5,549 nucleotides of DNA from Pseudomonadota bacterium. GTDB taxonomy: Bacteria; Desulfobacterota; Syntrophia; Syntrophales; JADFWA01. This document shows positions 2,724 to 5,549 of the stretch, one piece after another. The position numbers and the translations under genes were made by a program. Each line of letters starts with the position of its first letter. Position 1 is the stretch's first letter. Under the pieces are notes generated by a model. That model was not told where the DNA came from, searched no databases, and saw nothing but the letters and a program-made list of their open reading frames with translations. The stretch lies in assembly GCA_030610915.1 (NCBI GenBank), contig JAUWQS010000131.1, positions 1 through 5,549 on the forward strand, given 5' to 3'.

Positions 2724-3005
2724 TTATCTATCCTTCAAGTATCTTTTTAAATCTCTGTAATAATTCTCATGAGGTCCGATCATTATTAATTCCAAAGTAT
2801 TACCACCAAACCGATAAGACAATAAGTACTGAATAGTCTGGATCTTGAACTTATGGATATAAACTCCTCGAAGGTCACCTTTCTTTTCCGGTCCGATAGT
2901 AGGATTATTCAAGATTCTCTTGATCTGTGCGTCCAATATCTTTTTCTCTTGTTTTCTGAATTGCTTGACTTTTCTTTCAAAGGAACGAGACTGTATGATT
3001 TTCAT
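2724..3005 (-). CDS. Type II toxin, RelE/ParE family
   Basis: The product is about 93 aa, a normal size for RelE/ParE toxins, which either cleave mRNA on the ribosome (RelE) or poison gyrase (ParE); the sequence alone does not decide which. Visible family features are the N-terminal KIIQSRSFERKVKQF helix start, a basic central helix (KKILDAQIKRILNNP), the strand pair GDLRGVYIHKFKIQTIQYLLSYRF, and the C-terminal ELIMIGPHENYYRDLKRYL, which closely resembles the common IGxHENFYRDLK ending. It follows the antitoxin stop codon by only a few bases, so the two are probably co-transcribed and translationally coupled. The ATG at 3005 is preferred; a TTG two codons upstream (3011) is also possible and would abut the antitoxin stop directly. 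No strong Shine-Dalgarno sequence is visible for either start. Confidence 0.85.
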   Translation of the reverse strand: MKIIQSRSFERKVKQFRKQEKKILDAQIKRILNNPTIGPEKKGDLRGVYIHKFKIQTIQYLLSYRFGGNTLELIMIGPHENYYRDLKRYLKDR

Positions 3006-3011
3006 GAGCAA

Positions 3012-3230
3012 TTATCCAAATGTGTATTCTGAGGACTCTCCTTGATCTAACTCTGATAGTCCAATCAAGATTTCCTTAATCAAACGGTATGTCAAGTCAG
3101 GATTTTCTTCCGCACACTTCCCAATTTTCGACCAGTGTTCAATCTGCCCTGTTATAGATCGGTTGTCAATTGCACTAAATATTTTTGCGTCTCTGACCAG
3201 ATTGTCAGAAACTCTCACAGCAGTCGTCAT
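3012..3230 (-). CDS. ParD-like antitoxin of a type II toxin-antitoxin system
   Basis: This 72-residue protein has the pattern of the ParD_like family (TTAVRVSDNLVRDAKIFSAIDNRSITGQIEHWSKIGKCAEENPDL, described here by its segments VRVSD, DAKIFSAIDNRSITGQIEHW and KIGKCAEENPDLTY). The N-terminal part would form a ribbon-helix-helix DNA-binding fold, and the acidic C-terminal tail (ELDQGESSEYTFG) would bind and neutralise the toxin encoded immediately downstream. The start is well supported by a perfect AGGAGG (3239-3244 on the opposite strand) eight bases before the ATG. A palindromic operator lies 27-68 bases upstream of the start, consistent with autoregulation by the antitoxin or the complex. 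Family assignment is by recall of the conserved pattern. Confidence 0.85.
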   Translation of the reverse strand: MTTAVRVSDNLVRDAKIFSAIDNRSITGQIEHWSKIGKCAEENPDLTYRLIKEILIGLSELDQGESSEYTFG

Positions 3231-3530: not shown

Positions 3531-4010
3531 TTACGGGCTTAACCGGAACTGTGCATTGGTGTTTACCTGTTCCAGAAATGTCTGTTTTAATCGTTCGGGA
3601 TCTTCTTTGTCTTGTGAATCCGGCCGGTCTAACAATTTCTTGTTACCCTGCGACACACGTTCAAATGACAGGATGGGTTGTCTGTAACCACGTATTTCCT
3701 GCTTCAGTCCTATTGCATAATACCAAACGGGTTCCTCATCCGGGCTATTTGCCAGGTAGACTTCAACTATTATTTCCGGATCTCGTCTTGCGGCCAGACT
3801 GCGAATTTTTGACACACCGCCGCGGCTTTTAACGGCTTTCTGTAAACTGCCGCCCTCGGGTTTTGCAATATCACGCAGAAATCTAAAAACATCCAGGAGG
3901 TTTGATTTTCCCGATGCATTCGGACCAACGAGAAACTGACGCTCCCGCAAGTTTACATCTACGTGCCTGAAGTTTCTCCAGTTCTTCAAGATCGGTCGTG
4001 ATACAATCAT
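3531..4010 (-). CDS. Truncated AAA ATPase (N-terminal fragment, probable pseudogene)
   Basis: The 159-residue product starts MIVSRPILKNWRNFRHVDVNL and carries a good Walker A motif, GPNASGKS, at residues 29-36, followed by NLLDVFRFLRDIA. This is the N-terminal half of the AAA_15/AAA_21 (OLD/RecF-like, SMC-type) ATPases, usually about 350-420 residues and often found in phage-defence or accessory loci. The ABC signature, Walker B and the C-terminal half are missing. The family-like sequence runs to about NAQFR (residue 157), then a stop follows after only LSP. No continuation was found in another frame downstream, so the loss looks like a deletion or recombination junction at about 3540 rather than a frameshift. 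GAAGG at 4017-4021 could serve as the ribosome binding site. The product is unlikely to be an active ATPase. Confidence 0.75.
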   Translation of the reverse strand: MIVSRPILKNWRNFRHVDVNLRERQFLVGPNASGKSNLLDVFRFLRDIAKPEGGSLQKAVKSRGGVSKIRSLAARRDPEIIVEVYLANSPDEEPVWYYAIGLKQEIRGYRQPILSFERVSQGNKKLLDRPDSQDKEDPERLKQTFLEQVNTNAQFRLSP

Positions 4011-4070: not shown

Positions 4071-4337
4071 TCACAGACTGCGCTTTTTCAAACGGTCGGA
4101 ATTATCAGAAAAGGTTAAACCACGAAGAACACGAAGAGGCACGAAGATTAGAAGTAATGCTTTTATAAATTTATGAGATTCCTCGCTATCAATAACTTTA
4201 GAAATGATTCTGAAAGGCCTTGTAATTTCCTCTATTGCTCCTTCATCATTTCTTCGAAAGCTTTTGTTATCGAGAGACTTGCTCAGATAAACACGGTCAG
4301 GCCTTTTTTTCGAGAAATATTCGTAATCATCTGTCAT
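4071..4337 (-). CDS. Small hypothetical protein, C-terminus altered by a dispersed repeat
   Basis: This 88-residue frame encodes a charged N-terminal part (MTDDYEYFSKKRPDRVYLSK, then SLDNKSFRRNDEGAIEEITRPFRIISKVIDSEESHKFIKA). I do not recognise its family. The start is convincing: GAGG (4344-4347 on the opposite strand) lies six bases before the ATG, and the gene begins 32 bases past the GTTATGC end of the attC-like site, as a first cassette gene would. From about residue 62 the reading frame passes through the CCACGAAGA repeat (4120-4146), yielding FVPLRVLRG, and then an unrelated tail. The real C-terminus was probably lost or replaced when the repeat arrived, so this may be a 5' gene fragment. 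Confidence 0.55.
   Translation of the reverse strand: MTDDYEYFSKKRPDRVYLSKSLDNKSFRRNDEGAIEEITRPFRIISKVIDSEESHKFIKALLLIFVPLRVLRGLTFSDNSDRLKKRSL
4120..4146. repeat. Short dispersed repeat with 9-nt period (CCACGAAGA type)
   Basis: Three 9-nt units, CCACGAAGA, ACACGAAGA and GGCACGAAG, lie inside the 3' part of the small hypothetical gene. This AACCACGAAGAACACGAAG sequence is, as far as I recall, a common dispersed repeat in environmental bacteria. Its - strand reading supplies the VPLRVLRG residues of the hypothetical protein. Confidence 0.65.
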
Positions 4338-4368
4338 TTAAGGCCTCAATTTCAAGTAATGTGAATTT

Positions 4369-4504
4369 GCATAACGGCTGGCATGAGGGGCTGGAAAGGC
4401 TTGCTATAGCTTTGAAAACAATAGCAAATATGACTTTTAGACGGCTTGTGCAAAAGCGAAAAAGTCGCCGCCTTTCCCAGCCCCTCTCCATGCCTTGGTT
4501 CGGC
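4369..4504 (-). repeat. attC-like integron recombination site (cassette-associated inverted repeat)
   Basis: In the orientation of vapBC this element starts GCCGAAC (4504 to 4498; close to the R'' consensus RYYYAAC) and ends GTTATGC (4375 to 4369; close to GTTRRRY). The inner arms pair well: GGCATG (4380-4385) with CATGCC (4489-4494), AGGGGCTGG (4386-4394) with CCAGCCCCT (4477-4485), and AAAGGC with GCCTTT (4395-4400, 4470-4475). The unpaired bases (C4476 and 4486-4488) are all on one arm, as for attC extrahelical bases. The terminal part folds into two sub-hairpins: TTGCTAT/ATAGCAA (4401-4407, 4421-4427) and GACTTTT/AAAAGTC (4432-4438, 4460-4466). The total of 136 bp lies at the long end of known attC lengths. 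It starts 11 bases past the vapC stop. Without an integrase in view, a repeat of another type remains possible. Confidence 0.65.
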
Positions 4505-4515
4505 GTAGCTGAAAT

Positions 4516-4896
4516 CTATATTTGTATTTTAAGGGTGAGGATATCTTTCATTAGGCTAAAATGATTGTCCAGTGAATAAATTTCACAATCATTTTGTTTT
4601 GCGTTTTGGACGATTATTAAATCTGGTATACCAACACCATTCAATCCATTTTTGAGGCATTTGTATTGATACTCAATGATTTGCCCCCAATTAATGGACA
4701 AATTCAACCTGTTGATATTTAGCAATAAATTGGTCAATTTTCTTTGATTTCGAACTCTTAGGAAGGGTATCAGCTCCGCCAGAATTAGATCATTTGTTAT
4801 AATGAGATTTTCATCAATTAAGAAATCAAGTATTTCAGAATTATTTCCACTCCTGAAATACTCAACCCATACTGAAGTATCGACTAATACTGACAT
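4516..4896 (-). CDS. vapC: VapC-type PIN-domain toxin ribonuclease
   Basis: This 126-residue PIN-domain protein is a metal-dependent RNase; VapC toxins cut tRNA or rRNA and stop translation. All four acidic active-site positions are visible: Asp6 in VLVDTSVW, Glu41 in ILAELIPF, Asp92 in VGIPDLII and Asp110 in YSLDNHF. The size is normal and no disruption is seen, so the toxin should be functional. Its start overlaps the end of vapB by 13 bases, and AGAGGG about five bases before the ATG gives it a ribosome binding site inside vapB, a typical coupled toxin-antitoxin arrangement. The stop codon is 11 bases before the attC-like site. The cognate antitoxin is the VapB encoded upstream. Confidence 0.93.
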   Translation of the reverse strand: MSVLVDTSVWVEYFRSGNNSEILDFLIDENLIITNDLILAELIPFLRVRNQRKLTNLLLNINRLNLSINWGQIIEYQYKCLKNGLNGVGIPDLIIVQNAKQNDCEIYSLDNHFSLMKDILTLKIQI

Positions 4897-5087
4897 TGAC
4901 GCCCTCTGATTGCGTTTAAATCAATGTCCAAATCGACTTTTCCTTTAAATTCTTTTAACTCCGCAATTTTTGATTTTCTGATTAATTCTTCCAAGGCTAT
5001 GATGATGACTTTGGTTTTTGTCTTAATATGGGTGGCTTTCATAGCCTCATCTAATAAATCTATAGGTAAATCAAGCGTTGTTCTCAT
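4884..5087 (-). CDS. vapB: VapB-type antitoxin
   Basis: This 67-residue protein begins MRTTLDLPIDLLDEAMKATH and continues IKTKTKVIIIALEELIRKSK, the pattern of the VapB antitoxin family: a short strand and helices for dimerisation and DNA binding, then a C-terminal tail (ELKEFKGKVDLDIDLNAIRG) that would block the VapC active site. AAGGAG (5096-5101 on the opposite strand) lies eight bases before the ATG. It overlaps vapC by 13 bases. A promoter and palindromes directly upstream suggest autoregulation by the VapBC complex. Confidence 0.92.
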   Translation of the reverse strand: MRTTLDLPIDLLDEAMKATHIKTKTKVIIIALEELIRKSKIAELKEFKGKVDLDIDLNAIRGRQCQY

Positions 5088-5105: not shown

Positions 5106-5144
5106 TTTATGCATAAAAATATCATATTGTGCATAACGTATCAA
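5106..5144 (-). promoter_or_regulatory. vapBC promoter and likely operator
   Basis: On the - strand, TTGATA (5139-5144) and TATTTT (5116-5121) are spaced by exactly 17 bases and make a good sigma70-type promoter. A perfect 12-base palindrome, TTTATGCATAAA, lies at 5106-5117, and its half-site TGCATAA (5110-5116) recurs at 5130-5136, 20 bp or two helical turns away. These are likely VapBC binding sites. The GTTATGC cassette-end motif (5131-5137) falls in the promoter spacer, so the -35 box would lie outside the putative cassette. Confidence 0.55.
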
Positions 5145-5174
5145 GTTTTACATGCCGAACATTTACATCACCAG

Positions 5175-5198
5175 CACCCAGCGGCTTTTTGCTGGGTG
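5175..5198. other. Strong stem-loop upstream of the group II intron
   Basis: CACCCAGC (5175-5182) and GCTGGGTG (5191-5198) form a perfect eight-bp stem with loop GGCTTTTT. It ends 17 bases before the likely intron start. Some group II introns (class IIC) insert downstream of terminator or attC stem-loops, so it may be part of the target site. No T tract follows the stem on the + strand. Confidence 0.5.
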
Positions 5199-5215
5199 TC
5201 TGCGTGAATGCGGTG

Positions 5216-5549
5216 GTGTACGCCCGGCATGGGCGTGAACTTATGGGGTGAGACTTCCACTGAGCTCAGCCGAAGTCAAGTCCCCTATACGTGAAGCCTG
5301 CTAATATGGTGAACATATTAGCAAAAGTATTAGCCGAAGGCAAGGGCCTTTCCGTGAGGAAGGGTCTGAAGGAAGCCGGAGTGCAAAGCTATGAGCCGAC
5401 GGACAGAAACAGCATACAAGGCCAAGTTTCCGGGTAAGTTAGCACAACATAACGAAGCCCGGGGTTCAGGAGATATGGTAAATGCTGCGGTTGTGTAGCG
5501 AAAGTTCACGTTCTTATCCGGGGAGATCTGCTCGACATGCAGTTCGCAT
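5216..5549 (+). mobile_element. Group II intron, 5' ribozyme part (continues beyond window)
   Basis: From about 5216 the sequence matches my memory of the conserved 5' region of bacterial group II introns: GTGTACGCCCGGCATGGGCG, CCCCTATACGTGAAGCCTGC, GAAGGCAAGGG, CGTGAGGAAGG, CTGAAGGAAGCCGGAG, GCAAAGCT, CGAAGCCCGGGGTTCAGGAG, GCGAAAGTTCACG and GGGGAGATCTGC. These fit ribozyme domains I onward. Structural support includes CGCCC/GGGCG (5221-5225, 5231-5235) and GCTAATATG/CATATTAGC (5300-5308, 5314-5322). The 5' boundary is uncertain by two bases: GTGTA at 5216, or GTACG at 5218 if aligned to a GTGCGCCC start. The reverse transcriptase/maturase and the 3' end would lie beyond 5549. The intron is on the strand opposite to the neighbouring toxin-antitoxin genes. 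The structural class is not assigned. Confidence 0.8.
5252..5277. repeat. 26-nt palindromic insertion inside the intron's domain I region
   Basis: GACTTC (5252-5257) and GAAGTC (5272-5277) enclose the perfect palindrome CTGAGCTCAG (5260-5269). Removing exactly this block rejoins GGGGTGA with AAGTCCCC, restoring GGGGTGAAAGTCCCC, a hairpin I recall as conserved in related introns. This suggests insertion of a small palindromic repeat in a ribozyme loop. The conserved form is from memory, not alignment. Confidence 0.5.

Follow-up and report, generated by a model that had tools for sequence, protein, structure and literature searches.

The window, by which we mean the whole stretch of 5,549 nucleotides that was analyzed, carries on its minus strand a vapB antitoxin gene (4884 to 5087; Pfam VapB_antitoxin, 1e-10) and a vapC gene for a PIN-domain toxin (4516 to 4896; Pfam PIN, 3.6e-11). 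The end of vapC lies 12 nt before a 136-base hairpin sequence that occupies 4504 to 4369 on the same strand and is the main subject of this study. Directly after the last box of this hairpin, the region 4071 to 4375 (minus strand) holds an 88-aa open frame without a Pfam family. On the other side of the toxin-antitoxin pair lie a shorter, interrupted sequence of the same kind (5154 to 5215, minus strand) and the 5' part of a group II intron on the plus strand (5216 to 5549), which runs off the window.

Other features of the window were also seen. Short tandem CAGTGGTCAGTGA units with inverted copies lie at 345 to 412, at the end of an RF-1 domain frame. Positions 1 to 2230 are 97% identical to a contig (L002) of G001, the closest relative of the window among the genomes compared; this identity stops at 2230, which is the end of a LysM gene, and beyond 2230 the window had no further match in L002. 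A ParE-like/ParD-like toxin-antitoxin pair occupies 2724 to 3230, and the searches of the window showed no attC site behind it. An AAA_21-type ATPase at 3531 to 4010 covers only profile positions 3 to 111 of 304 and is apparently truncated; a 94% identical stretch exists in genome G003 (contig C19).

Structure of the attC site at 4369 to 4504

Read on the minus strand, the site begins with R'' GCCGAAC (4504 to 4498) and, after a spacer, L'' (4494 to 4477), continues through a tip of two hairpins to L' (4394 to 4380), and ends, after a second spacer, with R' GTTATGC (4375 to 4369). As in attC sites, R'' ends in AAC and R' starts with GTT. Folding of the minus strand from 4360 to 4510 gave arm pairs GGCATG/CATGCC (6), AGGGGCTGG/CCAGCCCCT (9), and AAAGGC/GCCTTT (6), with unpaired GAG and G both on one arm. 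The fold energy was -30.4, compared with -19.5 (SD 2.9) in 200 shuffles (z = -3.8), none of which equaled it. In a scan for paired arms anchored on AAC...GTT, the interval 4369 to 4504 scored 44 and was the sole interval in the window at 26 or above, while the top score among 60 shuffled windows was 30. The first-pass annotation had placed an attC-like site at exactly these coordinates, and the end motifs, the 6, 9, and 6 paired bases, the unpaired bases on one arm, and the two sub-hairpins that it described were all reproduced by the fold and the arm score, with the site reading on the minus strand.

The consensus for attC R boxes is RYYYAAC/GTTRRRY, and both boxes of the window site depart from it by one base, as had been noted from the sequence at the outset. 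In 42 attC sites that we collected by pattern from the cassette array of Vibrio sp. HDW18, only 9 R' boxes fit the consensus, whereas 29 were one base off and 4 two bases off; 32 of the 42 R'' boxes were likewise one base off. A one-base departure is thus usual. PMC7923331 prints the consensus as RYYYACC and GTTRRRY.

A model of attC sites was also built from Vibrio alone, with 15 of the 42 sites aligned and arm pairing built in. This covariance model, the kind of check that the first-pass annotation had proposed for its likeness to the attC structural signature, matched 4504 to 4369 over its whole length and with exact ends (E = 4.7e-7; E values of the covariance models are rough). Together with the fold, the match identifies an imperfect hairpin with L box, spacer, and variable tip, as attC sites have. 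In a search of the window and loci L001, L002, and L085 (64,197 bases, E ≤ 10), the only other match was to positions 20135 to 19997 of a plasmid from Desulfosarcina sp. BuS5 (E = 1.3e-6); a second BuS5 copy and a decayed copy in G001 were missed at E ≤ 10, and 576,698 bases from 35 other loci, taken out of a set of 74, gave no match at that threshold. In the reverse direction, a model was built from the window site and the two BuS5 sites. Of the 42 Vibrio sites, it recovered 29, all at E ≤ 0.014, and the remaining 13 escaped it even at E ≤ 10. At Rfam's own thresholds, the group II intron was the only match in the window.

Two to three extrahelical bases are a feature of attC sites that the integrase contacts, according to PMC11641012, and the window site has such bases on one arm. 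In all five of the sites picked for comparison (the window site, the upstream site in the window, one of the two BuS5 sites, one of the 42 Vibrio sites, and one site from genome G146), L'' accommodates the whole L' arm plus exactly three additional single bases, spaced 3 to 4 apart. In the window site, the minimum-energy fold stacks these bases otherwise, as GAG plus one G.

The window site shares several features with the Vibrio repeats (VCR-type attC) of chromosomal integrons: the three extra bases lie on the same arm, the same junction rule (see below) applies, R' reads GTTATGC in 7 of the 42 Vibrio sites, and the covariance models of the two types find each other. In contrast, the inner tip of the Vibrio repeats is unlike that of the window site, L'' reads CGCCT in most of them rather than GGCATG, and they measure about 124 to 129 bases rather than 136.

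Cassette borders and the interrupted upstream site

Once a gene cassette has been inserted, its R'' pairs with the R' of whichever site precedes it and not with the R' of its own site. This junction rule held exactly in 34 of the 41 consecutive Vibrio sites, and R'' matched its own R' in only 5 of the 41; when the order of the sites was shuffled 1,000 times, the rule was met on average 5.4 times and at most 13 times. In the window, R'' GCCGAAC (4504 to 4498) is the exact complement of a GTTCGGC on the same strand at 5160 to 5154, 72 nt before vapB. It follows that 5159 to 4375 is a cassette of 785 bp that carries VapB and VapC and lies between two G/TT crossover points on the minus strand. The mismatch between R'' and the site's own R' is explained in the same way, as the junction left by cassette integration. 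Because of this, and because Vibrio R boxes are usually one base off as well, the divergent attC family suggested by the first-pass annotation is not needed. A promoter match at 5144 to 5116 fell within chance numbers.

The stretch at 4071 to 4375, directly after R', is the start of a next cassette whose end is missing. Its closing site would have to begin with the complement of GTTATGC, and since GCATAAC is absent from the minus strand of the window, the window holds no matching next attC.

The GTTCGGC at 5160 to 5154 is the R' box of a second attC, of which 5154 to 5215 remains (minus strand): R' is followed by L' (5182 to 5166), a loop, and L'' (5210 to 5191), and R'' is cut off by the intron. 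Within this remnant, 22 nt match an attC of G146 (L159, 8691 to 8814) at 95%. Its arms score 36, a value that none of 200 letter shuffles equaled, and L'' again carries three extra bases. We had considered an attI site upstream of the cassette and dropped it on the match of 5154 to 5215 to the G146 attC and the same pattern of three extra bases.

The intron is recognized by RF02001 at 5348 to 5512 (143.6 bits). Several intron copies in G001 and G004 start matching at 5216 (GTGTACG), which would be its 5' end; should the GT be part of R'', the intron begins at 5218 instead. It occupies the bottom strand of the upstream attC, points against the cassette genes, and interrupts the site at R'' or within it. 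PMC7923331 describes group IIC-attC introns as inserted at TTGT/T on the bottom strand of attC sites, in the orientation opposite to that of the genes; the strand, orientation, and place of the window intron agree with that description, whereas its 5' exon ends in TGGT rather than TTGT. The same paper reports many toxin-antitoxin cassettes in intron-bearing arrays. With an exon that ends in TGGT, and with the 3' exon and the intron protein both beyond the window, membership of the intron in the group IIC-attC class is only likely. Five other intron copies share its start and have 5' exons ending in TTGT; two of them (L099 and L104) are accompanied by attC-like arms and a GTT box (none of 200 shuffles equaled them), and in the other three (L106, L110, and L101) the score test found no attC arms. 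A sixth copy (L100) does not share the intron start.

Related sites and integron integrases in other genomes

Local alignment of the DNA found relatives of the site on the BuS5 plasmid (NZ_CP087953.1; 88% and 82% identity) and one decayed copy in G001 (79%), on a 3-kb contig. When seven relatives were compared with the window site from end to end, the two BuS5 sites were nearest (86.8% and 82.4%), and the sites of G146, G036, and G001 stood at 77.9%, 76.5%, and 74.6%. On the plasmid, the close attC copies bound a toxin-antitoxin cassette and, as in the window, end it; its genes, however, encode a RelE-type toxin and an HTH regulator, and the record carries no attC annotation. The junction rule holds there for two neighboring pairs (AGCGAAC/GTTCGCT and GCATAAC/GTTATGC). 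It fails at a third border: GTTCGGC, the partner expected for R'' GCCGAAC of the site at 20135 to 19997, is absent from that strand in the 40-kb stretch. In a plasmid collection, the BuS5 record alone contained the site, and it alone contained the BuS5 cassette.

A model search (E ≤ 0.01), whose filters drop part of the weak matches, found relatives of the site in 12 of the 155 genomes of the order to which G001 belongs. Sixteen places were listed, of which we took 14 loci; a place on G001 contig C4 was already included, and one in G061 was left out. Borders were examined by script in 12 of the 14, with L165 and L167 excluded as model matches without AAC or GTT ends. An exact junction link to a neighboring site was present in 7 of these 12 loci (L159, L160, L161, L162, L163, L169, and L170), and the other 5 had a model-matched site without such a link. 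The same-orientation array copies that the first-pass annotation had named as a test thus appear on the BuS5 plasmid and in relatives, though not at every locus. One of the junction-linked cassettes, in G172 (L163), carries a ParD-ParE pair whose members share 79% and 74% identity with those encoded at 2724 to 3230 of the window.

Relatives of VapC occur in 7 of the 155 genomes. We considered these as clear cassettes and rejected the idea, as there was no model match at E ≤ 1; the only VapC-relative locus with a site (L183) had it at a distance of about 960 nt, with an arm score exactly at threshold. When six G001 contigs were scanned with the strict pattern GTTRRRY/RYYYAAC, which is too strict, no site was returned. 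A DNA search of the Desulfosarcina alkanivorans (G005) family, covering 30 genomes and run with no positive control, found none; no copy of the site was found in a phage collection, and one exact pattern found nothing in viral contigs. Among the papers searched, none joined integron, Desulfosarcina, and attC.

The window, whose sequence breaks off within the intron, contains neither an intI gene nor an attI site. In G001, the integron-integrase profile TIGR02249 is matched over its cut-off on contig C323 and by a split match on C227, and no array was recognized on either contig. Across the order, 64 of the 155 genomes match it at E ≤ 1e-60 and 59 over the cut-off, and none of 14 control genomes does so. 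When the threshold is relaxed to E ≤ 0.001, all 14 controls match, none of them over the cut-off. The search for intI that the first-pass annotation had called for succeeded in G001 and in the order and came back empty for the window itself. The BuS5 plasmid has no TIGR02249 match. On contig C1 of G036, a related site and an integron integrase are divergently arranged, 3 kb apart. As a side observation, the match on G001 C323 (L094, 1993 to 3342) falls in an open frame of 449 residues, about 117 of which precede it, and frames of about 430 to 480 residues with an integron-integrase match recur among genomes of the order.

Nature and possible role of the element

Taken together, we are left with very little doubt that an integron gene cassette with a VapBC pair has its attC site at 4504 to 4369, in a cassette array on the minus strand. 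A dispersed hairpin repeat of the MITE or REP type that merely resembles attC would account for the long hairpin, which is typical of such repeats, and for copies in several genomes, one of them decayed on the 3-kb contig of G001. It would not account for ends that vary as the cassette junction rule demands, nor for a site found by an independent attC model, and we regard it as highly improbable. Still more remote is a transcription terminator of the vapBC operon. The strong fold 12 nt past the end of vapC is what one would expect of a terminator, but no T run follows the stem on the minus strand, and the R boxes, the junctions, and the relatives after unrelated genes would all be left unexplained. 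A terminator scan found none there, although that scan sees only loops of 3 to 8 bases.

A different question is whether the site can still move. It could be a former attC that is now locked, in a remnant array without integrase and with an immobile cassette, a reading that is compatible with attC by descent. No intI was seen nearby, the next cassette lacks its end, and the upstream attC is split by the intron, all of which fit such a remnant. Against this, the site appears intact, and G001, the closest of the genomes compared, carries intI. We consider a locked site rather unlikely.

If the attC at 4504 to 4369 is active, its bottom strand, which is the plus strand of the window, would fold into the hairpin. 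By analogy with the family, an integron integrase would bind the R and L boxes of this hairpin and cut beside the conserved AAC, and strand exchange at the G/TT of R', with attI or another attC, would move the cassette. It is in this sense that an integrase may act on the site. The VapBC pair may in turn help to keep the array, as reported for Vibrio, where, according to PMC11023631 and PMC8876359, toxin-antitoxin cassettes have their own promoters and are toxic when excised, so that the array is kept.

The BuS5 sites are nearer to the window site than the G001 site is, and none was found in the search of the D. alkanivorans family. On this basis we suggest, tentatively and with more doubt than confidence, that this type of attC could represent a VCR-like lineage that moves toxin-antitoxin cassettes among distant groups related to sulfate reducers, probably of different orders, and partly on plasmids.

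The window attC represents a known kind of gene-shuffling element, of which it is a good specimen but not an unusual one. Judged by the 7-base consensus alone, the site would seem doubtful, and it is the border rule that settles the matter. What the locus adds, for a lineage in which many genomes have integron integrases, is a clean attC whose cassette has both of its borders and whose neighbor is split by an intron.
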